Shown here: piece after piece, positions 3,691 to 51,019 of the stretch
Numbering within the stretch: the stretch's first letter is position 1
Layout of the letters: every line of letters starts with the position of its first letter
Assembly (NCBI GenBank): GCA_023627715.1
Contig: JAMAHW010000117.1
Span: forward strand, 1 to 64,000
Origin: Periconia sp. R9002
Taxonomy: Eukaryota > Ascomycota > Dothideomycetes > Pleosporales > Periconiaceae
DNA: 64,000 nucleotides
Direction of reading: 5' to 3'
Translations under genes and position numbers: made by a program
Notes under the pieces: model-generated
The model's database searches: none
The model's input: only the letters and a program-made list of their open reading frames with translations
Told to the model about the DNA's origin: nothing

Positions 3691-3698
3691 GTCTACTG

Positions 3699-14822: not shown

Positions 14823-15440
14823 AAACCTGGGGAACCTGACCGGCTGGTGGATATCGACTTCACTCGACCCGGCCCACCAAACAATCTACACTCAGTTTTG
14901 ATATTTTTTGCGAAGACTGTCCATCCGCTAAATGGTTGACCACTGAAATAGTGGGTATTCGAAATCGGCCGGACTTGGTCACATACATACCTAGCCATAT
15001 AGCCAGATAGCCCGCTAGTATACACTCATATACCTAACACCAATCATTTGCGAAGAAGAGCGGAGGAGTTGAGGAAAGAGGGGGGGCTGCTACTGGCAAA
15101 ATCGGCCGTATTCACGCTTCCGTACGCCACAGAAGATGCTCAGCGCGTCTAAGTATCAGCTGTCCTTCGATCGAAAGTGGTCTTTGCCGTCTTGGTCACA
15201 CAGAACGTTCTACCTGGAGATGAGCATGAACTGAGAAAGTCAACACAAGATTTCTAATTTTTCCCCACCTGAACATGCAACATGATGCCATCCAATCGAG
15301 CCGCCATTCATCATTTACCGACACGTTGGATCCCGTGCCAACCTATCCAGATCCACCAGTACTACTGAACACAGAGAGTGGTCGCGAACTCTGCTCGACC
15401 CTGCCCTTTAATCGTCCGTCATGCCCAGTGAAATTCTAAT
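14823..15440. other. Intergenic
   Basis: 3' flank of the DUF1772 gene. No gene seen; the accessory mosaic begins after about 15.4 kb. Confidence 0.45.
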
Positions 15441-15502
15441 ATTTGCACCCTGTGCACAGGGGGAATTCCGTGAAGCTTTGCTTAATACAGAGAAAAAGTA
15501 GA

Positions 15503-15710
15503 GCACCTGTGATGGAGGTCGTTTGCAAGCTGCTGGAAGAGACTGTTTTTGAGCGGATCATCAAGTTCCTGGGCTTCCGTGATGTCTATACAGCGGTCTC
15601 CCTTGGATGGAAAAGATTCAAAAGAAAGATTGAAGAGGGTGATTTCGTTGGCATGAGACCAACAATTTACACAGATTTTCAGTCCATGTGGATATTTTCT
15701 CGCTGAACAG
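15503..15710 (+). pseudogene. GST C-terminal fragment (relic of a duplicated glutathione S-transferase gene)
   Basis: The plus strand encodes ETVFERIIKFLGFRDVYTA, matching the C-terminus of the intact GST at 31333-32110 (EAVFERIIKFPGFSDVYTA). Just after this the relic has lost one base relative to the intact gene, shifting the frame into SLGWKR...DFVGM. A second copy at 51236 carries the same one-base loss, so the two relics share a defective ancestor. The following 250 bp (to about 15950) also matches the flank of the 51-kb relic. Confidence 0.8.
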
Positions 15711-16002: not shown

Positions 16003-16683
16003 TTATTCACCCTTGTTGTCGGGGAAGAGCTCTTCGTATACTTTACGAAGGTCTACTTCCGTAACCTGCTGCTCTTGATCCTCAAGATTAAGCTTAAGCT
16101 CTTCTTCCTTCGCGGATGAACCCTTGCCTCCAGGGATGGCCTGTGACCCCTCGGAATTGGCCATATCTTTCCTTGTTCTCCCTTCCATATTGGCCAGCGG
16201 GGCAGGGTCATTCGTAACACCTGCGGATGATGGTGGTACAGGGCTTTTAATGCCCTTGGCCACCCTGGACTGTACATCTAGTCGTGCAGAACCGACCTCC
16301 TTGGACTCCTCTTTCTCTTCACTGCCCTCGGCGTCATTCTTTTCTTTGCCACAATCTTTAGCAACAGGCCCTTTTTCGATGCTAGCTAGCCACTCATTGA
16401 TTGAAGCTACCGTGGCCAGTTCTTCAGCGATGAACCGTCTCACCTGCCGCTAAACTCCAGTATTAGCAATATCCAATATACATAACCATTGACGTATCTT
16501 ACCCGTGTCAAGTCAATGTCATCATCGGTAACAAGTTCGGCCATGGCCTCGCGTTAGAACTTGATCGCGTCTTTGGCATTCTCCAAGGCTTCTAGTTTGG
16601 CCAAAATTTCTTCTACACAATATTAGATAATGCCGGATATTTAGTACGCATTATTAGAATAACATACCTGCAGAAGGCGCCAT
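16003..16683 (-). pseudogene. Chimeric, nonsense-mutated member of the CCCH/RGG gene family
   Basis: Exons 16683-16668, 16612-16503 and 16449-16003 reproduce the gene at 34039: a 16-nt first exon coding MAPSA, a phase-1 intron, then EEILAKLEALENAKD. At the codon matching TAC (Tyr) of the paralogue this copy has TAA, truncating the product at about 24 residues. Exon 3 keeps EWLASIEKGPVAKD, then departs: instead of the zinc finger it carries a tail matching the RGG-type gene at 36411 (RTRKDMANSEG...GGKGSS). Its 3' flank also matches that gene. It therefore looks like a recombinant of the two partner types. Reinitiation at the in-frame ATG after the stop is conceivable. Confidence 0.8.
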
Positions 16684-16837
16684 TGTTTATACGCAGGGAG
16701 GGGGTCAGAAGATTTTGAGTGATGTGTATGTGTTATGTAGGAGGAGCGGGCAGACTTGAAATAAAATTTCGAAGGTGGTTGTGCGGGCTCAGTTACACAT
16801 GATCACGTGATGGGGCTCACCATGCGAACATCGAAGG
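16684..16837 (-). promoter_or_regulatory. Promoter copy of the CCCH-type family genes with TCACGTGA
   Basis: On the minus strand this region resembles the leader and promoter of the gene at 34039: a CTCAAAATCTTCTGACC leader motif just before the ATG, and TCACGTGA at 16803-16810 next to a GCTCAGTTACAC motif. Confidence 0.65.
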
Positions 16838-17325
16838 TGTACCTAAGTATGTAGGTACGTAGTCCCGGTCAAACCCTGTTAGTTCACTTCTGTACATACA
16901 GAGGGTTGGCACGGGGAGGTCATGTATTGGGTAGCTAGTGCACTAGGCCTTTTGCACAAAATTACATAACTATACTAGATACACTATATAGGTTGTAGAG
17001 CTTCTAATTTATAGAACCTATTAGTCCTCCTAATATGTGACTTCCTGGCGTGTCACCCGTCTGTACATACGCAGCAGGGGTGCGGAAGGCAGAAATATCC
17101 ATTTTGAAAAGTCAATTCCGGAATGAATACGTATGATACATTTATGGTGCGTGCACGCATGTGGGAATCCATGCAAGTCATTGATGTGAATGTAAATGTC
17201 ACGTGCTTTTTACTTCATAGCCCTTGGGTATCTCTGTACATCGGGGTGTAAACCATCACACAGATTCTATGCTAGAAAATATTGCAAATTCACCAGTGAT
17301 TCATGAGGTTACTCTTAGCATTATG
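16838..17325 (+). repeat. Relic of the GST upstream region, inverted relative to 32265-32545
   Basis: Several collinear blocks match the reverse complement of the region upstream of the intact GST: AGTCCCGGTCAAACCCTGTT (near 16860), GTGAATGTAAATGTCACGTG (near 17185) and a GTATCTCTGTACATC / ACCATCACACAGA block (near 17230-17265). About 130 bp of TA-rich sequence (16930-17030) and other insertions interrupt the match. No GST coding sequence follows, so the duplication is fragmentary. Confidence 0.75.
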
Positions 17326-19843: not shown

Positions 19844-22507
19844 CTACTGCTCTCCCTTGTGCTGCAACTTACGGCTGATGTTGTGTAAGGCATTTGGGAG
19901 TTCATGTACTAAACCAGAGAGGCGGCGTGAACGTGAGTCGGAGGTGACTGAAAACAGTCGAGGAAACACTGTCACGCTGACCCAATTCCCGCTCTTTGTT
20001 GCGTTCAACTCATATTTGATCTCCGGAATGTCTTTGTAAATTGGCCGGAAAGTCAGTTGCTGTGTTTTCTCGAGCCTTCCTATTTTCAGATCGATACAAG
20101 TCTGGTCCATGACAAATATGTGTCCACGTGTGGCTACATTCTCGGGACGATCAGGTGACCAGTATCGCCAAAGTTCGTCGCTGTATTGATTCGGTGAAAC
20201 CAAGCGCTCGGGAAATCCTGTCTTGACGTTGATGTCTTCAGGTCGAATTAAAGCTGGCCAAGCGTCCAAGATACTGACTTTTGCCGGCTCCCCGTCACAG
20301 TTGACGACATCAGTAGAATTGTGGATCACGGTATCTAGCAGCTCGACGTAGCTAGCGCTTCGCAGACTCCGCAACGTGACCGCATCTTTCAACTTCTGGC
20401 ACTCTTGATACACTTGCCAGTATTGCGGCAGACTCATGAACGAGGTCTTCTTCGTTTTGCACAAGAGAGACTTGACTTCATCGAAGCAGATCCCGGTGGT
20501 CGGGTTTGGTTCGTTGCTCGAGCTAGCGTACTCCGCTTGCTCATTCGTGTAGAAACCGCATGCAACGTACATTTTCAGGGTTTGCGAATAGAAAAACCTG
20601 AGATGCTCCTTGACTACACTTTCAAGTAAGGGTCCCAAGAGAAGGCGCGGAGTTTGGTGCGAGATTTTGGATATCTCGATTTCTAAGTCGTTTGAAGTGA
20701 CATGATGCGAGCCATGTAGAGCTTCACATGCACTCCGAGTGATGTGAATAATCGCTTTCTGGAAGCCTTTGTCGTGAAAGTTGGGATTGAAGTACATCGA
20801 AATCCGCTCCTTCTTAACGTACTGGAACTGGGAATCATAGACTACTTGCTTGACCACAGTAAGGGGTAGGTGCCTTCGCAGGTTGACAGCTCGCGCTTGA
20901 CTGGCAAATGAAGCTTCTTCCAGAGTCTTAATAACAGCGAAGCCGTAGGAGCTTTGCTTGTAATCCTTCATGAAAGGGTCCCCGCTCATGGTATCTCTGG
21001 TAAGAAGGCCCATCAGATTAGGATAACTCCGATGTCCTTCTGACAATGTCTGCAAACGTTTGAGAACAAGACGGTCAAGCTGGCTCATATTGCCCATCAA
21101 GCTGGGCTCGGCCTGAATCAATGTTGCTTCCAGAAGTAACTTGGCCATTTCACAATCCAGGTCAAAACCAGATCCCAGGAACTTGAAGTATATCTGGACT
21201 GTGGAGGACCAAGAAACCTCTTGGCTGATTGCGGTGTAGTACGGAAATGTTCGCGTAGTGATATGGTGATTGATGATAGCTTTTATCTGGTGATCTTCTT
21301 CTTGATCAATGTCCTGGCAATCGACGAGAACAATATCATGAGTAGGGCCAAATTTGGGGACCTGGGCAAGGATGTCGCAGATTTGTGGCCCCAGAATATG
21401 TTTGGCGACGTTGGGAACTCGCTGCACCCAGCAGACACATTTCTTTCCATAGTAGAGGCTGCGTCTCACTGCCTCATATACTGCACCAACAATAGCGTCT
21501 GCGTCGGGATGACTATTACTGGTGACGTATACCTATATCGCGGGTACAAAATTAGTCAAATGTAACTAGGGTAGTTACAGTACATCACCAGTGTCTCAAT
21601 ACGCCACGTTATGTGATATCTCGCTAACAAACGACTCTGTACCTGGAGTTCAACATACCGTGTCCTCATCCGGTGTGGTAGCTAATGCCCGGGCCATGTC
21701 TTGGAGACCAACACATTGGAGTCCACCGAAATCGTCTTCGATCAAACGCTTCTTACCAGCTAGATCTACGAGTCTTTCTCTGTTCTTTTCAAGGGTATAC
21801 TCGTCCATTTCATTCTGTGGCTGAGGAAGAGTCGTGAGATTGAGGGATTCGAAAAATTCCCGAATCTCGGCATCGTTTCGGGCAAGTGTCTTCTGTTCGT
21901 AAATGCTCCATATTTCGTCCAGAGGGTTATGAACAGGAGGTGTTCTTGACTGATAGCACTCTCGAATCATGAGTTTAGGATGTTTGGCAAAAGATGGAAT
22001 GCCCAGATCCAAGGAACATGTTCCGGAAGACGTGACGTAGCTTCTGACGGCAGCGGCTTTGAAGCTACTATCATTTTGCGTCCAGAACTTCCATCTTCCC
22101 AACCCCGCAGTTGAACAAAGCTTGGTAGGTAAACCATCATCTCCGACGTCGTCTAGCTCAAACCAAGCAGGTCGAGAAGGAGGGACACAAAGAGCCTCTC
22201 CACGGGAGTCCACCATTGCGCCAGACTCGGAAAGACTGTAGGTATCTTCTAGCCATTCGGCAAAGTCTGGCGACGCAACGCGATGTTCTCTCTTGGCCAG
22301 ATTCATGAAATCACGGACGGATAGCATGATGATACCAAGTTCTTCACAGAGGAGCTTTGTCTCGTCGTGCGAGATCTTGTGAACGTGCCCCTTGCTATCC
22401 CACGTCAATTGAATACCGACTTTGGCAGCTGCATTTCGGACTTTAGGAGATATCACTAGGGGCTCGTCGTTGATGTGTAGTTGGAGGTGACTGTCGTAGA
22501 AAAACAT
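19844..22507 (-). CDS. Divergent DHH-family phosphoesterase-like protein, split by an introner-like element
   Basis: Two exons, 22507-21659 and 21532-19844 (845 aa), joined in frame across a 126-nt intron that is a copy of the dispersed element. The N-terminal 283 residues are not recognised. Exon 2 opens with DHH motif I (SNSHPDADAIVGA, Asp293/Asp295), then motif II VLVDCQDID (Asp354) and motif III INHH (371-373), where the usual first Asp is Asn. The expected SDT-type motif IV is replaced by IQAEPSL. The family includes exopolyphosphatases, pyrophosphatases and oligoribonucleases. With two ligand positions changed, activity is uncertain and a regulatory or binding role is possible. The C-terminal half resembles the DHHA2-like position but is not recognised. 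Confidence 0.75.
21533..21658 (-). mobile_element. Introner-like element serving as the intron of the DHH gene
   Basis: 126 nt on the minus strand, from GTATGTTGAACTCCAGG to TTGACTAATTTTGTACCC...GATATAG. Removing it joins ACG (Thr283) to GTA TAC GTC and restores the DHH motif I reading frame. It is exactly the same length as, and aligns along its whole length with, the intron at 50542-50667 in an unrelated gene. Shared blocks include AGGTACAGA, GTGGCGTATT, ATGTACTGTAAC and ACCCTAGTTA. Confidence 0.9.
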
Positions 22508-25639: not shown

Positions 25640-25990
25640 TCTGTCCAAGGATTACTCAGACGCTGAAGCGACATGCGCCTAGGCGTTAATGGTCAGAGAA
25701 TCGGCCTGGGTATTCTCTAACGCCGAAGCGGCACGCGCCTCAGCGTTACACACCAGAGCATCAACCAGGGCCTGCTCTGCCAACGCTGAAGCGACATGCG
25801 CCTGAGCATTATAGATCAGAGAATTAGCCTGGGCCTGCTCTGCCAACGCTGAAGCGGCACGCGCCTCAGCGTTATACATCAGAGCATCAGCCAGGGGCTC
25901 TACCAACGCTGAAGCGACACGCGCCTGAGCATTATTGATCAGAGACTTGACCATATCTTCCAACGTTGAAGCAACATCCGCCTGAACGTT
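25640..25990 (-). repeat. About 66-bp coding minisatellite running through a stop codon
   Basis: At least five units of about 57-69 bp coding VASALAEQ...L...NAQAH-like segments, with CGCGCCTCAGCGTTA or CGCCTGAGCATTA as the hallmark on the plus strand. The array does not end with the reading frame. At 25679-25681 a CAG (Gln) codon of the repeat has become TAG, and another partial unit continues to about 25640. Confidence 0.8.
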
Positions 25991-26893
25991 TTTGACCGGA
26001 TCATCAATCCTTGCAGTATCCTCAGACACATTCCCCCCATTTCCCAGGCTGGCCTTCAGCATTTCGACCTCATGTTGGAGCCTCTTGTTCTCGTCCTCCA
26101 AACTCTTGATCCTAACTTGATATTTGGCCTCGTGGTCAGGGTCATAGGGAATCCTAGCTTCCTTGGCCGTCCGCTGTGCTCCAAACTTTGCATTCCTAAG
26201 CTCTTCGCCCGAAGGGAGAAACTTGACCCATTCATGACCTGCTTTGAGAAGCACGTCCCTATCCCTTGGGCTTGGCCGTATCCGAACGCCCTCGTGTTGG
26301 TATGGCACTCGGACAAGGTTCTTTGTGTACCATGACCATGATACATAACGCATTGGGCAGTACTGGCCCTGGTGGTACTGATGGCAACAGCCGCAAGCTG
26401 ATGTGCAAGTCCGGGAGTCCGTGTGACCGATTGAAAATGGCCGTAGGCAGTGTGGGCAAATTTCGCCCCCGTCTCCTACTCCAGGTGGTATGTCCAGTTG
26501 GTCTTTGTAATCCCCGTTGGGTGGCCGAAAACTGTAGAAATGATTAGAACACGAACCCGAATATTGTTGATATCAAACTGACATGTTTGCATCAGACCGA
26601 GCGTCTGGCTTGGCCATCTTCGGAGGCTTGTTGGCCTTTGGACTGGCACTGCGCTGCCCACGGATTGTGTTTTGACCCTGAGGTTGACCTTGACCCTGAG
26701 ATTGACCCTGACCCCGAGACTGGCCCTGAGGCTGACCCTGAAGCTGACCCTGATTTTGCAATTGTTGAAGACCAGCAGCGACTCCCGCTGCAATGGCACC
26801 AATGTCGAATGCACTACCTTGGCCTCGACCTCGTCCGCGACCGCGACCGCCACCACGACCGTGACCACCGCCGGAGCGGCCTCGACCGGACAT
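25679..26893 (-). CDS. RGG-family protein A: RGG/RG box, Cys/His cluster, coiled coil, Ala-rich repeats
   Basis: Two exons, 26893-26583 and 26531-25679, phase-2 intron (GTCAGT...CTACAG); 387 aa. Residues 1-30 are a dense RGG/RG box (MSGRGRSGGG...RGRGRG), followed by a Gln-Gly repeat (GQ units, about 50-80). Exon 2 starts FRPPNGD, the same splice position and motif as the gene at 32942. A Cys/His cluster follows: C129-C132, C146, C150, C152-C153, H154, H157, C162, probably zinc-binding. Then comes a heptad-like helix (IKSLEDENKRLQHEVEMLK) and five Ala-rich repeats ending at a nonsense-created stop. RGG boxes typically bind RNA. Its head-to-head partner appears deleted. Confidence 0.72.
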
Positions 26894-27150
26894 GATGAAG
26901 TTGTAATTTTTTTTTGGCGAAAAAAAAAATCCGTAAAAGAGAGAGGGGGGGGGAGGCGACGGGGGGGGGGGGGCAAATAGTGGGAGAGAGATTTTGTGTG
27001 TGATGGCGAGGTTGTAGGTAGCAGTTTGTGCGTGATGCTAACTAATACTGCTGTATAAGGAAACATTCACTAGCAGGGGTATGTAGGATACAACATGAAC
27101 GAGCAAGCCCGCGCCTTCCTCTTGCTCTATCATGTGACCGCACATGCATT
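26894..27150. promoter_or_regulatory. Bidirectional promoter of family pair A, with partner gene deleted
   Basis: Contains homopolymer and purine-rich leader sequence of the RGG gene, TAATACTGCTGTATAA (27043-27058, cf. the perfect inverted repeat at 29007), ATTCACTAGCAGGGGTA, GCGCCTTCCTCTTGCTCTA and TCATGTGACCGCACATGC (27130-27147). All recur in the same order in the 28.9-kb promoter. Immediately after, sequence matches the 3' flank (30912-30965) of the CCCH gene at 29228, not its 5' end. Confidence 0.75.
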
Positions 27151-28710
27151 GCGTGAATGACTCAAGAGCAGAACTGCTTGAACAAACAGCCTTCTAAATG
27201 AAATGCATCAAATTGGGTCTCAACATTCTGTAGTTCAGCATGAATTAGAGCATCGTCACTTATCAATAATCTGGATTTTGGCTACACAGTGTCAAACATT
27301 GGATTCATTCTGTGGCAGGTGCGGCCTTCACACAAGATGATACGTTTCGGGACTAGTACGGTATCAATACCTCCTCACCACAACTATATTTTGCTCCAAC
27401 ACCGCCTACGTGTCGCCAAAATCATAGTTCAAGAGAGTAATTTTGGAATCTAGATGGGAAAATTGCTTTAATTCAGTTTTGGGGCCTTTGGCGTGTATAC
27501 TATGGGCTAACCGAAGCAACCTGTCTGGCTTTTTATTACTGCACCCATCTTGCGGTGAAATGTCCACCAAGCTCCACAGCGCCCATAAGTTCGTTCATCC
27601 ACCTCTTGGCAACACAACCAGCTCAACCGAAGCATGTCGTCACGCTAGGACGCACTAGCTGTGCCAGTGTAAGTTGGTCAAGGTTTCATGGAAAACACTC
27701 CACTGACCTGTTCCTCAGCTACGCTACTCGATGGTCAAACCTTTCTGTCTCTCTTCGTACCGTACCGCGAATCATATATCCTCGCACCCCGTGGCCCACG
27801 TTACCACCATTTTTGATCCTCGATACCGCAGGCTTGTGTAGACATCTAGTCATTACGAGTTTCAGAAAGAGCTGCTGCCATACAGCAAGGTCCTGCCTTG
27901 TGGAATTGGATCTTTGTCAAATTTCGAAGCCGAGATACGAGGAAGTTTAGGCATCAATCCCCGTTGCTATTTGGATCACCTCTCGTGAACTCGTACCAAA
28001 TGGTATCATATCAAACGTTCCGGTTTCAATGAATGGAAGCATTGGCAGCTAGGGAGGATGTATATACCAAAAGCGTCGACTTGATGCTGTTCCTCTGCCC
28101 CATCAGCGTGACGACGAGAGTTTACGCAGTCGAGCGCGAACTTGTCCGCCGTTATCGGGAAGGGGTAGATGGAGGACACGAGAGCCAGATGGGCGGACAT
28201 ACCAAAAGGCAGTTCATATAACCAGACCTACACCAATACATACACCATCACCTGTCAGGGTATGCACCCAAGAGGAGGGCACAATGGAGGTCAAGAGCCG
28301 GACATCATCATATATCTAGGCACATACCAATACATACACATCATACAATATGAAATGCGGTGGCTTTTTGCACAACACCTTCCCAAACGACTCTGTGCAA
28401 CGCGTTGACTTGTGCGATGGGGGCTTTGTTTCTAAACACTTCAGTCCCCATATCACGGACGGAGGAGCAAACATTGGATTTTTTCCTCGGATCTGCTGTG
28501 CTACAAGAGCCATGCCTTGCGCTGAAGGATACACGACTGCCAAAATAGCTCACGAGATGAAGGTTAAACCTACCCTAATAGCAGAGTGACAAGGAGGTCC
28601 AGGACAAGGATGTGGTGGATTCGGAGGCGATGAGCCCGGAGAATGAGGAGACTGAGATAGAGGAAGTGGGCTTACCGCGAGCTTTCCAAGTATAAAATGA
28701 CCAATAACCA
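27151..28710. other. 1.5 kb with no supported gene
   Basis: The first 55 bp copies the 3' flank of the 29228 gene (GCGTGAATGACTCAAGAGCA). Further right I see only broken frames. A plus-strand acidic run near 28590-28690 could be the tail of an old gene. No transposon end found. Confidence 0.45.
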
Positions 28711-28910
28711 TTGAGCAGTTTTGCAGTATCCTTCATTCACACACATTTTTCGACCCGCTTGAGAATTCTCAAAGTGTTGGTTGCTCTGCCCACGATCCTC
28801 TCCCGCTTGAGTGTTGCCAAAATATTGGCCGCCCCGGCCTTTACCACTACCACGGCCACCACCCCGGCCCCGACTTGCTCCACCTCATCACATCCAGCGC
28901 GGCTCGACAT
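28711..28910 (-). pseudogene. RGG-family protein B remnant, frameshifted
   Basis: From the ATG at 28910 the minus strand reads MSSRAGCDEVEQ and then leaves the RGG frame, ending after about 60 codons. In the adjacent frame the expected sequence is present: GRGGGRGSGKGRGGQYFGN, then GQSNQHFENSQAG, matching GGRGGQGRG and GQSNQYSDRAQAG of the 36411 gene. At least one frameshift near the N-terminus therefore disabled this copy. No exon-2 homologue is visible downstream. Confidence 0.75.
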
Positions 28911-29227
28911 AATAGAGAGAGAAAAACGAGAGAGGATGAGAAAGGGAGAGAGAGAATTAGAATGTGGCAGTGGGGCTGTACGTAGCTGTTTGTATATGGT
29001 GCTACTTTATACTGCTGTATAAGGACATTATTCACCTGCACTAGCAGGCATACGACAGTAGAGTCTCAAACTTTGGATACATGAACGAGCCAGCTCCGCG
29101 CCTTCCTCTTGCTCTAGCCTATCACGTGACCGCACATGCACTGCTTGAAGACCAAAATGTTTTTGCCCACATACGCTCACCACACTACACACACTACAGC
29201 ACCACCACACACGCATACATACACATC
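28911..29227. promoter_or_regulatory. Bidirectional promoter of family pair B
   Basis: 317 bp between two divergent ATGs. Includes the perfect inverted repeat TTATAC-TGCT-GTATAA (29007-29022), TTCACCTGCACTAGCAGG, and TCACGTGACCGCACATGC (29122-29139). The leader toward the RGG side is purine-rich on the plus strand (CT-rich in the transcript). The leader toward the CCCH gene is CA-rich. TCACGTGAC resembles a Cbf1/E-box site. Confidence 0.7.
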
Positions 29228-30723
29228 ATGTCTGCGCAACAAGGTATTTCAACCCGACAGTATTCTCTACGTATGTACTGATGATTGTTCTAGACAATAT
29301 CTTGGCCGTGAGAAAGAGAATCTGGGGCCTCGAGCACATCATTGCGTTATACACGCAGCAATTGCAAACTGGCCAATTTGAACCGGGCCTCACTGCAGTA
29401 TGATATCCGCATCATTTCACATGCCACGTGTCACTACTAATGTTCAACTAGAGCGCCATTACCTATAGTCGGGGCGTGGCAATGGCCGAATTGGACGCGC
29501 GCAAGAGACAGTTGAGGCTACTAGAGTCTCCTGCAGCGCCTGGGCCTCCTCCTGTGCCTCTTCGCCCTGTCGCTCCTGTGCCTCTTCGCCCTGTCGCTCC
29601 GGTGGCAGTCCATTCTGTCGCTCCGGTGGCAGTCCCCCCTCCTGTCGCTTCGAGTGGCAATAAAAATAGCGAAGAGGCCAAGGAGACCACGTATTCGGCC
29701 GCTGCTTCGAATACAACTGTTCCCCAGTCGGCCAATCAGAAGGAACAGCCGGCCGCTCGTGAGGAACCCAAAGTCAATGGGATTTTTCCAGCGGGCACAA
29801 ATGTGCAATACATCGAGGCCAGCGTCGTAGCCGCTCGTGGGGGTTTGGTCACCGAATACGACCATTTGGACCGCGCGACCAAGGTTGATATTGCTTTGGA
29901 GCTGCAAAAGCGATTTGGGCCCCAAAAAAAGATTTTTATGACTTTCTCAAATTTTTATTTTGCTTATCATGACAGTATGTTCATTCAAAGAAATTTTCAG
30001 TCCATGTCTAACTTTCTTAGAAATTCCGGACTTCAAGGACGATGATGGCCTGGTTAGGCCTGCTAGATATGGCTGCAATTACCATAGCAATCTGTATTTG
30101 TGCTATGCGGACGCCCTTACAGGACAGGGCTGCCCCTTTGGGGATGCTTGTTATATGCGGCATGCGGACTTGTACGTCACGGAGATGAGACGGATTGCGG
30201 ACAGTGGCCCCGAGGGACAAAAATTCCTTCTTCAATACGTGAGTACATCTCTAAAAAATCGTTCATCAAAACGCATCACTGACATTCCATGTAGAAGGAA
30301 AAGGCCCAAAAGTTCGGAAGGCAGCCTCCAAAGGCCGTATCTGGCATTGCGAAGAGGGACTGCATCCCCATCGCACCATCCATGCCTCAAAAGCAGGAAG
30401 ATGTTGAAAAGGTCGTGCGTTGGCACAGAATGCATGAGGACATATTGTTCAACAAGGCCCCAAAACATGCATTTTTCATCATTCGGGACATGTACGATCA
30501 GGGCCGCCCCCATGAAGCCGGCGCCATTTTCCCTCTGCCTCCTCGCTACGCTGCTCGTACACAGCAATCTTCCGGCCGGGGGGGCTTTCCTTCTGGTCGC
30601 GGAGGCCTTTCGTCTCACCAGTCCCGCGGTAATTCTTCTGGCCAGGACATCGAGATATCGACGGAGGATATGAAGAAATTGACGCCGGAGGTGATTACTC
30701 GCCTCCACAACTTTCCTTTCTGA
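29228..30723 (+). CDS. CCCH-finger/RGG family protein B
   Basis: Five exons: 29228-29243, 29294-29397, 29452-29974, 30021-30238, 30295-30723 (429 aa). Intron phases 1, 0, 1, 0 are identical to the gene at 34039. Exon 1 is only 16 nt. An N-terminal helical segment (ILAVRKRIWGLEHIIALYTQ) is followed by a Pro/Val linker made of four 24-bp repeats (29548-29640). A conserved core FKDDDGLVRPARYGCNYH leads into the finger C242-x9-C252-x5-C258-x3-H262. The tail has KRDCIP..AP and an RG-rich stretch (SGRGGFPSGRGG). C-x9-C-x5-C-x3-H is a variant of the RNA-binding CCCH finger. No known family recognised; RNA binding is inference. Confidence 0.8.
29548..29640 (+). repeat. 24-bp coding tandem repeat (PLRPVAPV units)
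   Basis: Four units, the first two identical (CCTCTTCGCCCTGTCGCTCC) and the last two diverged, inside exon 3 of the CCCH gene B. In-frame, so it lengthens a Pro/Val linker. Confidence 0.8.
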
Positions 30724-31332
30724 GGGACCCATACTATCGCTTTACGTGGTAGAACAGCCTATCGCTTTACGTGGTAGAACAACAATCGCTTCGGTGGTTG
30801 AATGGCCTTGATGATGGTTGCGGGTCTTGGTTTCCATTTTCCCGTCTTGTTTTTTGTTTGTACTTATGGAAATTGTACGAAAAAGCTTCTACAGATTATT
30901 TGAACCGTCTACATTGCGTGAATGACTCAAGAGCAAAAGTGTTTCAACCAACAGCCTTCTAGATGTGACTTATGGATGAAAAGACACACATCCTATGCCC
31001 ATGTAGAGAAATCCTTGCTCGTCATTAATACTTTTAGTTTCTCTCGTGATAATGGTCGCTCCGATGTTGTGTGTCGACAATAGCCCTATAGATTTCCACT
31101 TTTTCATCGTGCACCGCGGCCCTGCAGGCTCACATACAGGAGTGGAATGCTAACGAGCTGGAGATCGAGAGCACAAAATCTTGGTACGTAGTGCAACCAG
31201 GGGGATACAATGTACGAGAATGAATTTGAGAATGAGACTTGCTTACATACGGTCATATCATGGAATGAAAATCTATAGAAATTGCTAGTCGCATACCATG
31301 CATGTCATGTCATGCCAACGAAATCACTCCCT
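30724..31332. other. 3' flank of CCCH gene B; no gene
   Basis: Contains a 22-bp direct repeat CTATCGCTTTACGTGGTAGA (30734 and 30758) and the block 30912-30965 that is shared with 27145-27200. Otherwise nothing recognised. Confidence 0.5.
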
Positions 31333-32110
31333 TTAATCTTTCTTTTCCATCCAAGGGAGGCACGCAGTATAGACATCGCTGAAGCCCGGGAACTTGATGA
31401 TCCGCTCAAAAACAGCCTCGTCCACGACCCTAGTTGACTGAAGCGACCCGGCAATGAAGAAATCGGTAAGACACGGCTTTTCACCGAGTACAAACGGCCC
31501 ATCGCTGCTATTCTCACGTATCAGTTGACCAACAGCTTGCATATCACTTTTTACCGCAGCCCAGGCGTTCTCCTCTTTCTCCATGTGGAGTAAATCTTCG
31601 AGTGGGTGGCCAAGCCACGCCTCGCGCGTGCGTCTGAAGTACTCCTGTGCACGGGGTGATAGTATCAGGATTTCGCGGGGCATGACGGACGATTGAAGGA
31701 CAGGGCCGAGTAGAGTTCGCGCCTTGATCTCGATCTCACGACCACTCCCTGTGTCCAGTGGTATTGGAGGATCTGGATAGGTTTTCTCCAGGAATTGAGA
31801 GATTGGCACGGAATCCATGATGTACGTGTCTGTCGGGACATGATGGATGGCCGGAACGGTGTATTTGCCACCGGGTTTGACCGGAACCATGCCCCTAACA
31901 AAATCTTAGATTAATCGCCTACGTTGTGGTAAACACTCACAGCGGCTTCAAAGTGGACTCGATGTCGGGGAATTCCAGGAAAATGGTTTTGTAGGGAATG
32001 CGCTTGTAGTTGAGCATGAGGCGGATCCGCCAGACGACTGGAGAAAAACAAACATTCTTTACACAGGCCAAATCGTACAGAATGATGTCAGGGTGTGCTG
32101 CAGTCTCCAT
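31333..32110 (-). CDS. Glutathione S-transferase
   Basis: Two exons, 32110-31941 and 31894-31333, phase-2 intron (GTGAGT...TTAG); 243 aa. The thioredoxin-like N-domain starts IILYDLACVKNVCFSPVVWR and ends with the cis-Pro/Ser region TVPAIHHV...MDSVPISQFLE, the usual glutathione-binding VP..x(D/E)S motif. The helical C-domain includes GEKPCLTDFFIAGSLQ, the N-capping/hydrophobic-staple position. The frame extends upstream to 32230, but METAAHP at 32110 is the natural start. Soluble conjugation of glutathione to electrophiles is the expected role. Two frameshifted relics of its C-terminus (15503, 51236) and a relic of its promoter (16838) lie in the window. Confidence 0.88.
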
Positions 32111-32264
32111 GTTGTACTCGGTTGGTTTTGAGGCGGTGAAGTCGAAGTTGACGTTGGCTTGACTAGGCGGCAGTGTTACAAAGTAGACCAAGTGGGGCTG
32201 AATGGTTAGGCGTGGGGTTGCGACGCCCACGGGATCTACGGAAGTAACATATCGGGAGGACTAA

Positions 32265-32545
32265 CTGATAAAATTGCAATGGTTGCGTAGCATAGACTCT
32301 GTGTGATGATTTATGTTCAGATGTACAGAGATACGCCAGGACTGAAGATCATGGAACAGAAGCACGTGACATTTACATTCACACCAGTGACCTCCAAGGT
32401 TGCTTGAAAATAAAGTGCGTGCATGCATGTGTATCAGATTCATTGCGGATTTCGCTTCTTAAATTGCTACTTCTGCAGCCTACATCCGAGTTGCGTATAG
32501 AAGTGAACAGGGTTTGACCGGGACTAGGTACACCATTGAAAGCTG
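32265..32545 (-). promoter_or_regulatory. GST upstream region duplicated at 16.8-17.3 kb
   Basis: Shares several collinear blocks with 16838-17325, including GTGAATGTAAATGTCACGTG on the minus strand. Conservation of a CACGTG-containing block in both copies may mark a regulatory site or simply recent duplication. Confidence 0.55.
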
Positions 32546-32814
32546 AGTCCAATGTAGGGAGCTAAATATCAAAGTTTAATGCTTGGGTGCGTACAGCATT
32601 CGCGTGGGTCTTTGTACCGCAGACAGAGGGACGAGGCAATGCGATAATGGTCATTCATGGACCCAGAGTGCTGAAGCACGATTGCGGCTTACTTCACGGC
32701 GGCACAAACAAAGAGAATGCGAAATTTTTGGCAAAACTTATTTATTGTCTAGAACGACAGACTAAGAAATCGAACCTTATCGTGCAGGCCTGTCCACTGC
32801 AAAAACATTCATCG

Positions 32815-32940
32815 TGTAGGCATGGCAACTGGAGCAGCGGCCTTCAGGCATGAATAGGTATATGGCAACTGATCCAGCGGCCTTGAGGTATGGATATAGG
32901 GCCACTGAATTAGCGCCCCGAAGGCGTTGAGGAATAGTGA
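32815..32940 (-). repeat. Degenerate tandem repeat in the 3' flank of RGG gene C
   Basis: Three units of about 38-44 bp built on GGCAACTGGAGCAGCGGCCT followed by TCAGGCATGAATA. Related units occur inverted in the 3' flank of the RGG gene at 36411 (37000-37095), so the repeat belongs to the gene family's 3' end. Confidence 0.7.
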
Positions 32941-32941
32941 C

Positions 32942-33695
32942 TTATTCGTCACTCGAATCATCCCCATCGGATGAACTATCGATCGTTACACCTTCTGGAC
33001 AAAGTGGAGCGACCAGTGCAGCCGTCATCCGGGTTTTCCTCAACTTTTCAAAGAGCTCGGGATTTTTGTCCTGGCGAGCAAGCTTGACCTTTTCCTCCTC
33101 AGATGGGGCCTTGTTTTCCCTCGCGGCCTTTAAAGCCTCATACTCGGCCGCAACTTGCCTGACTGCATACGAAGCTTCGACGACGGTCTTGATTCGCCTG
33201 GCCTTCTCCACACCATTGAACTTGGCCAGCATTCGCTTGGCCCACCCAGGCAGAGGCCCTCCAACCAAGTTGCTATGCACACGATCAACCCAGGAATTGA
33301 CCCGTACTTTTGGTCGAGATCGAAGCTGCTCGTTCTCAATTTCGAGCTTATCGAACTTAGCCTTTAGCTCATCAAACTTAGCCTTCAGCTCATCAATTTC
33401 GGCCTGTTGTGACTGATGAAGTCTTTCGCAGTGTCTGTGGAGCTCCATTTCGTCGGAAAGGTCCCTTGGAGGTGGCCGAATACTGGTAAATGTTAGCAAG
33501 TTGACAATCAAAAGTGAAAAGGGAATACAACTGTTTAGGGCCCGAGGTAACGCTACGAGAGTCACCGTGACGGTCTTGCGCATGGCCCTGACTTCGGAGA
33601 CCAACAAATTGGTTGTTCTGGCCATCATCGCCTCCTCCCCGATCAGTACGGCCCCGTCCCCTACCTCCTCTACCCCATCCAGCGCGGCCTGGCAT
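32942..33695 (-). CDS. RGG-family protein C: RGG box plus coiled coil
   Basis: Two exons, 33695-33532 and 33482-32942, phase-2 intron (GTTGTA...TACCAG); 234 aa. The N-terminal RGG box (MPGRAGWGRGGRGRGRTDRG) is followed by GQNNQFVGLRSQG, as in the 36411 paralogue (GQSNQYSD). Exon 2 opens IRPPPRD at the same splice point as RGG gene A. It then has a coiled coil with an imperfect heptad repeat (DELKAKFDELKAKFDKLEIE) and a basic middle (WVDRVHSNLVGGPLPGWAKR). It ends in an acidic tail (DSSSDGDDSSDE). The Cys/His cluster of gene A is absent. Divergently paired with the CCCH gene at 34039. RNA binding and oligomerisation are inferred from composition. Confidence 0.78.
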
Positions 33696-33726
33696 GGTTG
33701 TCGTGTGGTGTAGTGTGGTGTGATGT

Positions 33727-33767
<41 letters not shown>

Positions 33768-34038
33768 GCGGGTGGGAGAAGGTGGGAGAGAGTAGGAGAA
33801 AGGAAAAAGAAGGTTTTTATGTGATAGTGCGGATTTAAATAGCTGTTCGTGCTTGGTGCTACCTTATAAAGAAGTATAAGGTAATCTTCACCAGCAGGGG
33901 TCAGGGTGCAGGCTCGGTGAGTCCTATCACGTGACCTTGTGTAACTGAGCACGCACAACCTCTTTTATTTCACGTCTGCCCTCCCCACAGCACATACAGA
34001 CCGATCAAAATCTTCTGACCCTCCGCTACTTGTATACA
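33696..34038. promoter_or_regulatory. Bidirectional promoter of family pair C
   Basis: 343 bp between divergent ATGs. Contains TTATA-AAGAAG-TATAA (33864-33879) at the inverted-repeat position, CTTCACCAGCAGGGGT, and TCACGTGACC (33927-33936). A TG/GA microsatellite (33728-33768) makes the transcript leader of the RGG gene pyrimidine-rich. Confidence 0.7.
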
Positions 34039-35414
34039 ATGGCGCCATCTGCAGGTATGTTATTCCAATAATGCGTATCGAATACTGAGCATTAGCTAAT
34101 ATTGTATAGAAGAAATTCTAGCGAAGCAAAAAGCCTTGGAGAAGGCCCAGCACGTGGTCGAAGGCTACGACGAGGACATACTCGACAAGTTTTCCGGCAA
34201 TGACTCGGATAACAAGAAAATACGGGTAGGATATTCCCAATAAAATTATATTGGATATTGCTAATCGTTGATTTTAGCGGGGACTGAGAGGTGCTATCGC
34301 CGACTGGGAGACCAAGATCGAGTCATTGGAGGCGTGGCTTTCTAACATCGAGAAAGGACCTGTCGCGGAAAAAAATCAAGAGGAGTCCAAGGAGGTAGCT
34401 GCCGCACAACTGGATGTGCAGTCTACGGACGCACAGAAAGCCGCGGACAAGGGCATTAGAAGCCCTGTACCATCATCATACGCAGGTGTTGCGCATAGCC
34501 CTCCCCCGCCGGCCAAAATCCAGATTCTGCCCGTCAACCCCACAACTTCACCGGCCACTACCAATGTGAAGTATCTTAGTTGCAAGGACTTTCAACTTGA
34601 TCACGATCCCCGACCTCGTGCACTGAAGGCCACTCTAGTGTTGAACTGGTGGGAGCGAGTGAAGGACAAGCTTCTGCCGCCTGCGACATATCCCCTCTCG
34701 TTCCAGTGCTTTTACTGGGCCTATTATAAGGGTATGTGTTCCAAGGCTTCTCTTTCTGGAATTCAACTAACATTGTTTACAGACTCCGTCGAATATAAGG
34801 ATGATGACGGTAAACTTGGGCCACACAATTATGGATGTGATTATCACACCGATCTGGGCCTTTGTTACGAGGACGCCTGGAACCGCAACGGATGCTCGCT
34901 TGGCGATTCCTGCCGCCATCGGCACCTAGACTTGACGATGGAAGAAATGACGGCCATCATTCAAAACAACCCCGTGAGGGGCGAGGAGTTTGTCCGGACT
35001 TACGTACGTAGTATTCGCATCTGTGGTTGATTGTTGCTAACAATTATACAGCGGGACAAGGCCAGCAAGAAGGCGTCATACAATCCCCCGCCCAAACGTC
35101 AAGACGGCGTGGACAAGCGGGACTGCATTCCCTGTGCCCCGAAGAAGCCCACTAACGAGGCCGAGATGAAGCTTGTTGAGGAATGGCATGCAAAGCACCA
35201 GGCCTTACTCCAATCGAGGCCACAAGTCCTTCAGGAAATCTATGTCGGTCAGCGGCCAGCTGACGCGGGTCCTGCCCCCAAAAATCTTATTGGGGACGCG
35301 ACATTCCGTGGTGGCTGGCGCGGTGGTCGTGGTCGCGGTCGTGGCGGTGGCCGCAGCGGTGGTTCATACAGGCAGGCTCCTTACTATGTAGCAGGTAGAG
35401 AAGAGCGAGGATGA
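34039..35414 (+). CDS. CCCH-finger/RGG family protein C
   Basis: Five exons: 34039-34054, 34110-34225, 34278-34731, 34783-35003, 35052-35414 (389 aa), same exon phases as gene B. Order: MAPSA, a helical N-domain (EEILAKQKALEKAQ...IADWETKIESLEAWLSNIEK), a Ser/Pro linker, a LNWWERVKDKLLPPATYPL motif, the KDDDGKLGPHNYGCDYH core, the finger C223-x9-C233-x5-C239-x3-H243, KRDCIPCAPKK, and a C-terminal RGG tail (FRGGWRGGRGRGRGGG). The partner RGG gene is head-to-head. This is the only pair in the window in which both genes look intact. The function is unknown; an RNA-binding role is inferred from finger and RGG. Confidence 0.82.
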
Positions 35415-36410
35415 AATGTTGGCGGATTTGACAAACAGCATAGCCATTCAAGTCGCCGGAGCTGTGACGGATATGGCAGTATAACATTTGTACGATTTGG
35501 TACTTCTCGTTAAACACTTAAATCCAAACCTGTCGCATGAAATGAAAGACGTGCTCAACATGAATAACTGATATCTCTTGGCGTACAAGATTGCGATAAC
35601 AAAGTGCATGCATATAAACATCGTCACTCCCTCAGTCTGTCCTTCTTGCCTCGATCTCGCATCTGATAATTCCAACTTCAACCAAAGCCACCTTACCAGT
35701 CAGCTATAGCAACCCATGAAGTGCGGTTCCTCGAGATATACCCCGGAGTCCTTGCCATTATGGGTTAAATGCGAGGCTGCTGAACGTGAAGTTTTGCTCT
35801 TCCGTGTCGGACCCAGAACGAAGAGGAATTTCCAGAGAGTATCGATTGTGTGAATTCATTACGCAGAAGGCACGGCAGACGGAGTCAATCTCATGGTGAG
35901 AATCTAGCGGCGTGATTAAACGGTTACTTGCACGGGTATGTGCTGCATATGGTGTGCGTAACAAAAAAATACCATTCAATTCAAAGTGTTATTGTCCTTA
36001 CAAACCATTGACAACACCATCCACGGTATCGACACCAGGTAGAAGAAATCACAGGAAACCCCTTGGCTGGGACGTATACACAGGATCACGGAGAGGAATT
36101 AGACGTGGGGGCTGAGCCGCGGTTGCTCTCAATTGTGGTAGCAAGATGGGCGAGCAATCGATTGGATGCCAGTAAGGTAGTGTGGGCGCAAGAGTACCGG
36201 TGGTGATGGGAGTACTGTACGTACCCCTGCTAGTGCAAGTGAATATTTCCTTACTCAGCAGAATATAGGAAACCCCACGCATAAACAGCTACCTACAACC
36301 TCACCATCATACACAAAATCTTTCTCTCTCCCTCTCATTCCCTCTCTCCCTCACACTTTCTCTTTCTCTGTCTCTCTTTTCTTCTTTCTTTCTCTTTCTC
36401 TCTCTCCACC
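35415..36410. other. Intergenic with promoter remnant of RGG gene D
   Basis: Up to about 36190 nothing is recognised. From 36210 the family promoter appears in the opposite orientation: ACCCCTGCTAGTGCAAGTGA, then CTTACTCAGCAGAATATAGG. A long CT-rich leader (36320-36405) runs up to the ATG. No divergent CCCH partner remains. Confidence 0.6.
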
Positions 36411-36990
36411 ATGTCTGGTCGGGGAGAATGGGGACGAGGTCGAGCAGGTTGGGGCCGGAGTGGTGGCCGTGGTGGTCAGGGACGTGGCCATATGGGTCGC
36501 GGAGGGTTTGGCCGTGGTGGGCAGAGCAACCAATACTCTGATCGTGCTCAAGCGGGTCAGGGCCGTGGCCATAGGGGTCGCGGAGAGTTCAGTGGCGGTC
36601 GTGGCGGTCGTGGAGCTTTCGGTGCTTCATTGGGCCCTCAGGGCACGGGAGAAATCGTGCCACCAGTCAAACGGAAGGCTGACGACGCTGAGCTGGATGA
36701 TGACGGACGGCCAGGCCAAAATCGCAAAGTCACAACTGGCCACATTCCATGGTATGTTGGCTGAGGTCAAAGAGATTAAGGAGAAGGCCAAGCAGCTTTG
36801 GAATGAAGTGGCTCCCAAGGACAATTCCCAGACCGATCAAACGGATAGTGGTTTGACTGAAAAGCATCTGGAAGAGGGAACAAGGAAAGACATGGCCAAT
36901 TTTGAAGAATCAGAGGCCATCCGTGGAGGCAAGGGTCCATCCGACAAGGGAGCAGAGCCCAAGCCTGATCTTGAGGAGGGTGACGATTAA
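36411..36990 (+). pseudogene. RGG-family protein D, frameshifted in the middle
   Basis: The ATG frame reads an RGG box (MSGRGEWGRGRAGWGRSGGR...GQSNQYSDRAQAG) then KRKADDAELDDD, and stops at 36764 shortly after losing register. The +1 frame carries the rest: KIAKSQLATFHGMLAEVKEI, a helical segment, and a C-terminus EEGTRKDMANFEESEAI...DLEEGDD matching the chimeric gene at 16003. One base gained or lost near 36700-36715 explains the break. No intron fits. It could also be an assembly or base-call error, as the rest looks sound. Confidence 0.65.
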
Positions 36991-38051
36991 GCCACTATTT
37001 TCCATGCTTCTCGGTCGCTAATCCAGTAGCCATGCTTCCATACCTCAAGGTCGCTGTTCCAGTGGCCATGCCTACACAATGAATGCTTCGCGGTGGATAT
37101 GTGTACACGATGGGGGGAGGGGGGGGGGCTGTTTAGTTTTCAGCTTTCTCAGTTTTCCTATCCTAGACAATGAACAAGTTTTACCGATATTCTCGCAGTT
37201 TGCCCCTTACTGAATGTTTTTCGAAAAGAAATGAGTGATTTCTTTGTGCCGTTACTTGTTTTGGGGTGATGACGGGAAATTTCCCTGCCTTTTTCTTAAC
37301 ATGCCAAATCACTAAACAACATTGTAGGCATCGAAGCGAGCTGATTGTTGTAGTGCGAATGTATCACTTGCAACTTGAAATGTGCAGAAGACTAGATAGA
37401 ATCATGACGGCTTGATGGATCAAATGGTTGGTTTGCCACTACAAGCATTAAGTTTCTCCGCTAGAAACTTATGGGACAGGATCCCTTCTATTCCTACACA
37501 ACTTGTTCGCATACAGGCCTATAGTAGTACAAGTGTACACATTATCTATCTAATGCTATTCTGGATGCGCAGTCTCTTATGCCAGGTTGTTTTATCCGTA
37601 GACTAAAAACCAGGTGCTGGGAATCAAATCTCAACACATTGTATATCCAACGAGATGCATGCTTGCGCAATCGTACAGATCGCATATTAAAAATAGAAGG
37701 CTACTATTGGCTGCGCCACCGTGGCTGATCGCTTGGTGGGGTGGTCGTATGGGTTTGGAACACGGGCAGCTGAGAACTTCCCAACTACCCTCCCCACCTC
37801 TAACATCCCATTATCTTTATGTCCTTGCTTGGTTGTGACTTAATTCATTCAACCTGCCTTTGTAGTATGACACAAAGATCCCAACAATTATCAACACCAC
37901 CAAGGAAACTCGCTTCGCGTTTGCATCATTCCCATTACGGAAACGCGAGCAAAAGTGTATAGGGTACGCCGCATTCCTTTTTGCTTCGACAAGATCAACC
38001 GCAACAGCTGCATCTGCGGCCAACTAACGTATCGACTCCAGGCAGTCTAGG
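36991..38051. other. Intergenic, including family 3'-flank repeat (37000-37095)
   Basis: 37000-37095 has two or three inverted copies of the repeat found at 32815-32940 (CCATGCTTCTCGGTCGCTAA, CATACCTCAAGGTCGCTG). A G homopolymer lies near 37110-37128. The remainder to 38051 shows no gene. Confidence 0.5.
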
Positions 38052-48013: not shown

Positions 48014-49465
48014 ATGCCGCATATTCCTCCATCTCTCTTCGTCGAACCGTTCCTGGAGACGCTACAATCTGCTTCGCATGTCAACAGCCAAGATGATCCC
48101 AACTACTACGTCAACGACCCCCAATCTCTAATCAGCCAATCCAATGTGCATTCTTTTATAAACGGTACCGGTTCTGCGATTTATAAATCACTTGTGCCGC
48201 TTCTAGAGTCGACTAACCACGAGCTCATTCTTGTAACGTGCTTCTGGGCTCGCTCCGATACCCTGCAAACGCTCAACGACGTACTACTCAAACTGTCAGA
48301 TAAAGCGGTTCGACGTGGAACCGAGAAGATTCGAGTTCAGCTTTGTTTCTCATCGTCATCCCTCTTTCAGAAGCTTTTCCACAAACAATCAACTGCTGGG
48401 CAAGAGTATCCTCCTTCGACCTGGGTGAAACAACTCGGCCTACCTGCGAAGTCCGAACTCGGCGGCTTAGATCTCACGGTCAAATCAATATTCATACTGC
48501 CATTCAGCGTCATGCACCCGAAATACATCATTCTTGACAGACAAACCATAGTCCTCCCATCGTGCAACATCAGCTGGGAAGAATGGTTCGAAGGAGCAGC
48601 TGTTTTCTCCGGGCCAATTGTGTCGCAATTCACAACATTTCACACCGAATTTTGGACACGCCAATCCCCTCCTGCGTTACCCGCCACATCACCCTCCGAA
48701 GCAATCATTTCCCGTCCAGAGCCGGGAACGTCCAATCTCCCCCACGCGCACACAATAACACATTTCCCCTCCACCTCCCTTTCCGGAGTCCCGACTATCT
48801 TCCTTCCTAGCCCCCACCGGCGCAACCCACATTTTCAGCCCTTTACCCCATCTTCCAACGTCAAACCTCCTTCTACTCCTCTCAACACGTTCCTGCTCAC
48901 CCTCGTCGGAAAAGCTACGTCCAACATCACCATCCAAACCCCCAATCTGACGTCACCACCCATCCTCAGTGCTCTCCTTTCCGCTCTGTCTCGCGGCATT
49001 GACGTACACATCCGCACATCAGCGCGTCTCATGATTCTCGAGCAATTGGTCACCGCCGGCACGACCACATCCCGCTGCATTAAAACGTTAATAAAACGCC
49101 ACAAGAAATTCCTCCGCCAGCACGCTCTTGCTGCATCTATATCCACCGACGAAGAAGCCAGAATTGCCACCCCGACTTACCGCCCTGGCCGTCTTCGTGT
49201 CGAGTTCTTCGAGCCAGTGGGAGGACCGCGGAAGAGGGGAGAAGAGAATGGAGAACCTCAACAAAGTCACTTGAAAATGATTTGTGTAGATGGGGAGGTG
49301 GTGGTTCTTGGGAGTGGGAACTTGGATCGCGCTAGCTGGTTTACGAGTCAAGAGTTGGGAGTTGCGTTCTTTGATAAACAGTTGGTAGGGAGTGTTCTGG
49401 GGAGCGTCGAGGAGGGTATGCGGGGGAGGACGAGGGTTGTCTTCGATAGCGGTGAAAGCGTTTGA
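48014..49465 (+). CDS. Phospholipase D-like protein with two HKD motifs
   Basis: Intronless, 483 aa from the ATG at 48014; the frame is open further upstream but without a better ATG. Two PLD half-sites are present: HPKYIILDRQTIVLPSCNIS, where the first motif H-x-K-x4-D is intact, and HLKMICVDGEVVVLGSGNLD, where the second is also intact with GSGNLD downstream. Such two-HKD proteins hydrolyse or transfer phosphodiester bonds; this stand-alone fungal type lacks PX/PH domains, so substrate could be a lipid or another phosphodiester. A Ser/Pro-rich, poorly conserved insert separates the halves. Confidence 0.87.
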   Translation: MPHIPPSLFVEPFLETLQSASHVNSQDDPNYYVNDPQSLISQSNVHSFINGTGSAIYKSLVPLLESTNHELILVTCFWARSDTLQTLNDVLLKLSDKAVRRGTEKIRVQLCFSSSSLFQKLFHKQSTAGQEYPPSTWVKQLGLPAKSELGGLDLTVKSIFILPFSVMHPKYIILDRQTIVLPSCNISWEEWFEGAAVFSGPIVSQFTTFHTEFWTRQSPPALPATSPSEAIISRPEPGTSNLPHAHTITHFPSTSLSGVPTIFLPSPHRRNPHFQPFTPSSNVKPPSTPLNTFLLTLVGKATSNITIQTPNLTSPPILSALLSALSRGIDVHIRTSARLMILEQLVTAGTTTSRCIKTLIKRHKKFLRQHALAASISTDEEARIATPTYRPGRLRVEFFEPVGGPRKRGEENGEPQQSHLKMICVDGEVVVLGSGNLDRASWFTSQELGVAFFDKQLVGSVLGSVEEGMRGRTRVVFDSGESV

Positions 49466-49839
49466 GATTGATTTCGGATTGCTATACATATTTTCAGAAG
49501 AGTCTTTCTCTATTGGGTATCCTGGTACTAACTTGTAACTAGCTATAGACAGGAACAACGTGAAAAAGAAGCGGTACGGCTTGAGCGTCGGTAACAACTG
49601 CATTCGCATTTCGAACTCACTCTCCCCTGTCAAGACAGGGTACCAACACGTCGTCGCTTAGCGGATGCCCAGTGGTGCACGTGACAGTACCAGTCAACAT
49701 TGAACAGTGAAAGCCTCAAATTTTGTCTCACCTCCCACACCATACCACATCACATCACACCACACCACACCACACATACACACCACACATACATACCTAC
49801 CTACATACCTGCCTACCTACCTACCTACATACGTAAACG
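49466..49839. promoter_or_regulatory. Promoter and CA-rich leader of the 49840 family gene
   Basis: Contains CACGTGAC (49678-49685), as in the other family promoters, then a long CA-rich/CTAC-rich simple repeat (49741-49833) immediately before the ATG. CA-rich leaders are also seen before the CCCH gene at 29228. Confidence 0.6.
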
Positions 49840-50789: not shown

Positions 50790-51019
50790 TTGATAGCATG
50801 CTAGGCTGGGTATTCTTTCTACCTTAGTATGAGTCACTGGGCCGGGTTCTATTCTGCCCTAGTGTGAATCTCTAGGTCAGGTCCTATTCTGCCCCAGTAC
50901 ATCATCAATCACATGGAACTGGTGGTATCGTGAACGTGGGCCAATTAGATATAATGCATTCCTGACCATCATACAAAACTCCTCTGTGAAGAACTTGGTA
51001 TTCATCCGTGATTTCATGA
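50790..51019. repeat. 3' flank of the 49840 gene, duplicated at 24.8-24.92 kb
   Basis: 50790-50945 matches the flank of the 24730 relic, with one extra internal unit (TCTAGGTCAGGTCCTATTCT). It then joins the NUDIX relic. Confidence 0.7.

Follow-up and report, generated by a model that had tools for sequence, protein, structure and literature searches.

The window analyzed here is a stretch of 64,000 nucleotides from the Dothideomycete fungus Periconia sp. R9002 (assembly GCA_023627715.1, contig JAMAHW010000117.1, positions 1 to 64,000). Between positions 25640 and 36990 it contains a cluster of genes of two types, the RGG-type genes A, B, E and G and the CCCH-type genes C and F, with B facing C and E facing F in head-to-head arrangement. 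The duplicated family extends past this region, with a relic at 16.0–16.8 kb and a further gene (H) at 49840–50789. The initial annotation had described a linked pair of RNA-binding proteins that expands and decays rapidly. The locus resembles a young gene family in rapid change more than a demonstrated paired system, and we consider it somewhat probable that it is a local birth-and-death cluster derived from one ancestral divergent RGG/CCCH pair with a shared promoter.

Gene F (34039–35414, forward strand) has five exons (34039–34054, 34110–34225, 34278–34731, 34783–35003, and 35052–35414), and its introns are in phases 1, 0, 1 and 0. The preferred model encodes 389 residues. All four models (388–391 residues) have this one layout, and the variation among them is confined to introns 1 and 3. 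Gene C (29228–30723, forward strand; exons 29228–29243, 29294–29397, 29452–29974, 30021–30238, and 30295–30723) has a single model of 429 residues, with introns in the same phases. The two genes have the five-exon layout and a 16-nucleotide first exon in common, and both give open, spliceable models. Each protein contains one C-x9-C-x5-C-x3-H finger, and RG-rich sequence is located near both C-termini, as an RGG C-terminus in F and an RG-containing C-terminal part in C. The amino-acid identity between C and F is 41% over 162 aligned core codons, and the score of this core alignment is 63 standard deviations over shuffles, none of 500 attaining it. Agreement over these codons is 0.57, 0.62 and 0.33 at the first, second and third codon positions, respectively, with some bias towards the first two positions because the codons were aligned on protein.

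The spacing of the finger (C-x9-C-x5-C-x3-H, with G-C-x-x-G-D-x-C-x3-H) is like that of CCCH (C3H1) zinc-finger RNA-binding proteins. However, C and F fall below the Pfam cut-off for CCCH fingers, and the remainder of each protein is unmatched. The Pfam scan covered A, C, E, F and two relatives of A from other contigs (L029 and L030, see below). Neither C nor F reaches the cut-off of any family; the best CCCH match of C is zf-CCCH_DUS3L (15.1 bits, with a cut-off of 30), and F has no family at E ≤ 1. A search of the organism's own genome (42.9 Mb in 267 contigs) with PF00642 gives 15 matches, none of them on this contig. At E ≤ 0.001 in the same genome, C finds itself and F only, and F matches only this contig (34.1–35.4 kb, 30.0–30.6 kb, and the relic).

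A database of 5.8 billion proteins, including NCBI and UniRef records, was searched with queries of the A type and the CCCH type. Candidates had to have 5-residue words in common with the query, and the profile searches scored a capped number of them, so that distant relatives could escape. No homologue was found for F alone at E ≤ 1 (6757 candidates scored), nor for a profile of F and C at E ≤ 0.1 (7992 candidates scored). Sequence searches of the PDB gave weak matches only (best E values of 0.42, 0.54 and 0.17), and the top profile match of the finger is the CCCH finger of Roquin-1, which is weak (E = 0.17). On viral contigs, 64 and 134 stretches fit a pattern, and none was confirmed as a relative. 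A literature search, in sources available in part, returned nothing on this family, which weakly suggests that it has not been published.

Gene A (25679–26893, reverse strand) consists of exons 26893–26583 (or –26598) and 26531–25679 and encodes 387 (or 382) residues. It has an RGG N-terminus, a tandem zinc-knuckle-like Cys/His module (CPHC...GH...C...CGCC...H...YC), a coiled coil, and an Ala-rich repeat C-terminus. The Ala-rich repeats are about 20 residues each (DNA self-matches at 25660–26007), and their length could differ between strains. Gene E (32942–33695, reverse strand) consists of exons 33695–33529 (or –33532) and 33482–32942 and encodes 235 (or 234) residues, with an RGG N-terminus, a coiled coil, and an acidic tail. 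A leucine-zipper-like segment in E remains under the Pfam cut-off (HALZ, 24 of 28.1 bits), and neither A nor E has a Pfam match that reaches it. In both genes a phase-2 intron is located directly ahead of (I/F)RPP, and each has two near-identical models. The search of the own genome with E at E ≤ 0.001 finds E only.

The other two RGG-type genes are less well preserved. Gene G (36411–36990, forward strand) lies in tandem behind F, and is either a 160-residue model with a phase-2 intron at 36752–36848 or frame-broken. Of the 32 introns that could join its two open stretches, this is the one that satisfies the donor filter used. It is also possible that G is a pseudogene, because its second exon lacks an FRPP start and its frame is broken when unspliced. 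The 3′ flank of G (36980–37111) is common to E (32779–32952). Gene B (28752–28911, reverse strand), head to head with C, is a broken RGG first exon, with its frame broken past the start. No FRPP exon was seen for it in 28300–28930, and its DNA is similar to G. E and G are linked to A by the promoter, the RGG first exon and the phase-2 intron only.

Upstream of the RGG genes, A, B/C, E/F and G carry a similar block, with matches of E = 1e-19 (A and G), 3e-19 (A and B/C) and 9e-8 (A and E/F). The block between B and C (28948–29149, unstranded) contains inverted TATA-like arms (CTTTATACTGCTGTATAAGG), and the block between E and F (33850–33935, unstranded) contains the inverted arms CCTTATA...TATAAGG together with TCACGTGAC. 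In both, the arms enclose a short core; by eye, one arm is altered in A and one in G. The motif TCACGTGA is positioned ~107 bp upstream of C, ~113 bp upstream of F and ~118 bp upstream of the relic, and also ~151 bp and ~153 bp upstream of the unlinked genes L029 and J. A has a one-base variant of this motif. Upstream of G, a sequence match to the RGG-side part of the block is found at 36218–36326 (reverse strand), and the CCCH-side part gave no visible match there. The copy of the block at A (26984–27210), searched in the own genome, was found at A, G and B/C, with its last 54 bases at the 3′ flank of C.

These last bases mark a rearrangement. Directly behind the promoter of A lies the sequence of a CCCH 3′ flank (27147–27200, forward strand), which is 89% identical to the 3′ flank of C at 30912–30965, and the junction falls within a few bases of common sequence. 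Such a scar is expected from a deletion, which suggests that A once had a CCCH partner and lost it.

E/F is the sole pair with both sides intact. Among the four RGG genes of the cluster, E is intact and faces the intact F, B is broken and faces the intact C, and A and G are unpaired; an intact RGG partner is present for one of the four CCCH-type copies (F, among C, F, H and the relic). The initial annotation is thus borne out for the two CCCH-type genes with the same intron phases and finger, for the intergenic promoter motifs in common, and for the placement of neither protein type (A, C, E and F) in a known family. Its count of at least three RGG-type genes with a common splice site holds for A and E, and G, perhaps a pseudogene, lacks the FRPP start. 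Its head-to-head pairs hold for E/F, with B frame-broken and A having no CCCH neighbour.

A is a member of a dispersed zinc-knuckle/coiled-coil family that occurs elsewhere without a linked CCCH gene. The family has five members, A, L029, L030 and J in this genome and P0001 in Periconia macrospinosa. At E ≤ 0.001, A matches two other contigs, C35 and C14 (the L029 and L030 genes), and the spliced C14 protein finds the loci of the A search and a further place at E = 0.009, gene J. This gene (L042:4062–4763, corresponding to C14:481061–481762, reverse strand; 215-residue model) is knuckle-less and is divergent to the L030 gene, ~7–8 kb away. It has a His/Gln-rich start where A has RGG, and keeps only the part of the module past the knuckles.

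The FR(P/Q)P...CPHC...YC module is present in A, L029 and L030, which were aligned, and in P0001; E and G are without it. The phase-2 intron precedes FR(P/Q)P in A, E, L029 and L030, and is at the matching place in J. Within the module, L029, L030 and P0001 contain C-x2-C-x4-H-x4-C, which is one residue shorter in A (C-x2-C-x3-H-x4-C) and which resembles a CCHC zinc knuckle, with no Pfam match reaching the cut-off for A, L029 or L030. Unlike CCHC zinc knuckles, the family has a second, longer knuckle-like motif (C-x2-C-x7-H-x5-C) ahead of this one.

The profile of A, L029 and L030 finds one protein in the database, P0001 (hypothetical protein DM02DRAFT_730992), with E = 1.1e-95 (7999 candidates scored). 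The identity to A is 46% across 39% of A. P0001 has the module of the family (FRxP...DQxDxPxGVG, CPHC...GH...C, C-x2-C-x4-H-x4-C and YC..R...FY) and a coiled coil, and it is orthologue-like to L029 from FRQP through the C-terminus. In contrast to A, P0001 has no RGG stretch. No CCCH homologue was found in the same database, and P0001 was compared at the protein level alone.

The genes on C35 and C14 have no F or C match nearby (tblastn with A, C, E and F, ~4–5 kb on each side, E ≤ 1), and with L030 and H added as queries there was no F, C or H match at the C35, C14 and J loci (E ≤ 0.1). A detectable CCCH neighbour within ~4 kb is therefore found for none of the three relatives of A outside the cluster, on two other contigs, and the one homologue found outside this genome is of the A type. 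The proposal of a conserved linked pair is not supported by this comparison. The suggested check on co-occurrence finds the two types apart, in a small sample of one genome and one database protein.

The features of the A family also bear on an origin from a mobile element, in which the cluster would be the remains of such an element, or a domesticated gag-like protein, spread by transposition. The tandem knuckle-like motifs of A, L029, L030 and P0001, with a coiled coil and a basic stretch, fit such an origin, as do the dispersed relatives and the short dispersed repeats nearby (see below). We regard it as highly improbable, however, as spliceosomal introns are kept at the matching place in the relatives, just three relatives were found outside the cluster, and a scan of 10 proteins or open reading frames of the window (4 of the 10 being without any family) gave no polymerase or integrase domain at E ≤ 0.001.

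Another explanation assumes no functional coupling. The RGG-type and the orphan CCCH-type families would be neighbours by chance, duplicated together with each protein acting alone, and their promoter would be in common merely through the short spacer. This is possible, if rather doubtful. It is favoured by the unpaired relatives of A in the genome, by the loss or breakage of one partner in every unit except E/F, and by the unpaired H. On the other hand, the TATA-like inverted arms and TCACGTGA are kept between C, F and their divergent neighbours, and E/F is still intact on both sides.

The relic (16003–16821, reverse strand) is inverted. It retains the opening exons of a CCCH gene, the second of which contains a stop, and a frame resembling the third exon, which continues into a G-like C-terminus. 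It also carries the CCCH-side part of the E/F-type promoter. A dispersed repeat of ~175 bp is located beside it (16893–17070), and a query containing this repeat gave 108 first-look candidates.

Gene H (forward strand; four models, 241–253 residues) has a 16-nucleotide first exon and introns in phases 1, 0 and 1, and contains no finger. It weakly resembles the N-termini of F and C (z scores of 3.7 and 3.2, attained by 1 and 3 of 500 shuffles, respectively) and the own-genome search with H matches H alone, and the gene is therefore placed in the CCCH type mainly on its exon layout. No RGG gene was seen on the opposite strand of 49400–51600, leaving H unpaired, and a phospholipase-D-like open reading frame on the strand of H ends at 49465. 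The third intron of H is a dispersed repeat of ~130 bp (50542–50667) with GT...AG ends. Further copies are at 21518–21668 and 3557–3706, between adjacent open reading frames, and a query holding the repeat gave 182 first-look candidates. The copies look like introner-like elements. Such elements are known from Dothideomycetes (PMC4457414).

Gene D (31333–32110, reverse strand; a hand-joined model with approximate ends) lies between the B/C and E/F units and encodes a glutathione S-transferase (Pfam GST_C_7, 2.7e-22; GST_N_2, 2e-10). Fragments of its region (31.3–31.8 kb) recur in the relic regions at 15340–15656 and 51236–51311, and the duplicated unit therefore seems to include this gene. Self-comparison of the DNA finds tandem and inverted partial copies within the cluster. 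Because the units look like local duplicates of one array, the head-to-head repeats count once: their repeated order is one event and not independent evidence for functional coupling.

Repeat-induced point mutation was considered as the cause of decay, and found no support in 11 aligned duplicate pairs and 32 windows of 2 kb, judged by the customary thresholds. The transition/transversion ratio of the 11 pairs is 0.95–5.5, with transitions in CA/TG context prevailing in 3 of them. In the 32 windows, TA/AT is 0.52–0.82 and (CA+TG)/(AC+GT) is 1.04–1.40. As no clear signature is seen, the decay looks ordinary.

The duplicated, broken and rearranged copies agree with the local expansion and decay described at the outset. 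A role in conflict or self/non-self recognition had been proposed on this basis, with an allorecognition-like or selfish pair under recurrent selection, and we consider it quite unlikely. The apparently lineage-restricted sequences and the turnover and mosaic copies within one locus are consistent with such a role. Linked fungal allorecognition genes similarly comprise differing neighbour genes in a fast-changing locus. The het-B locus of Podospora anserina, going by the title of its report (PMC10890737), combines a HET and lectin-fold protein with a PII-like protein. However, no HET, lectin-fold or PII-like domain is present in the Pfam listing of A, C, E and F, and the scan of these four proteins at E ≤ 1 likewise gave no NLR or other domain of fungal conflict systems. 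Moreover, partners on both the RGG and the CCCH side are missing or damaged, and ordinary orphan duplicates would give the same pattern. Nothing is specific for a conflict role, or against it, and to call the locus a functional linked pair or a conflict system goes beyond the evidence. A bolder version, in which E and F are the halves of a two-component RNA-binding complex under one bidirectional promoter, serving as a lineage-specific conflict or self/non-self determinant with partners traded by recombination, is very unlikely.

The birth-and-death reading is preferred because C and F have their exon layout and phases in common and diverge at third positions, because the phase-2 intron recurs in the A family and E, and because the upstream block (with the copy of A as query, found nowhere outside the cluster in this genome), the scar, and the tandem and inverted partial copies connect the units. 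The unpaired relatives on two contigs, the single A-type homologue in P. macrospinosa with no CCCH-type counterpart, the weak match to the Roquin-1 finger, and the presence of TCACGTGA upstream of C, F, the relic, L029 and J also support it. The ancestral divergent locus would have contained an RGG-type and a CCCH-type gene around a common control region of ~350 bp, and this pair would have been duplicated and shuffled and would now be decaying. The common promoter may have co-expressed both genes. As originally noted, both protein types carry RNA-binding-type sequence and helical segments, and these motifs and the gene layout suggest that both products could bind RNA, through the RGG stretches and zinc fingers or knuckles, oligomerise through helices, and serve one and the same ribonucleoprotein process, where their role would be dispensable.

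Several observations weigh against this reading. When exon 1 is left aside, the alignments of E with A (z score of 3.4, attained by 5 of 500 shuffles), with L029 (2.5; 11 of 500) and with G (2.8; 8 of 500) give no convincing homology. The similarity to P0001 is weak (z score of 4.4, 0 of 500) and could stem from coiled-coil composition. RGG does not seem to be a constant of the A family, because L029, J and P0001 (three of the five members) are without an RGG stretch, an RG-rich N-terminus being present in A and L030. RNA binding is read from motif and composition, as A, C, E, F, L029 and L030 are all below Pfam cut-offs. The two AlphaFold2 models are poor, with mean predicted local distance difference test (pLDDT) scores of 51.4 and 53.5, and the second (P0001) has long helices in its C-terminal half, with ten-residue block means up to 82. 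G, H and L030 are without TCACGTGA, which is found in 120 of 2435 background windows of 600 bp (these promoters counted in). The search with the upstream block of A missed the E/F copy, so that weaker copies elsewhere could escape. Finally, a CCCH gene may have been inserted into A-like loci instead of having been lost from A; a gain in the other units is less simple, the CCCH side being present in C, F and the relic alike.

The locus brings in two protein families that lack a curated model, and one of these has an alignable founding domain in Periconia macrospinosa too. If it is true that E and F form a complex, they would constitute a new RNA-binding pair. The cluster also cautions against counting the head-to-head pairs of an array separately, since they may stem from one event, and it illustrates within a small region how a divergent gene pair may arise, duplicate, shuffle and unpair.

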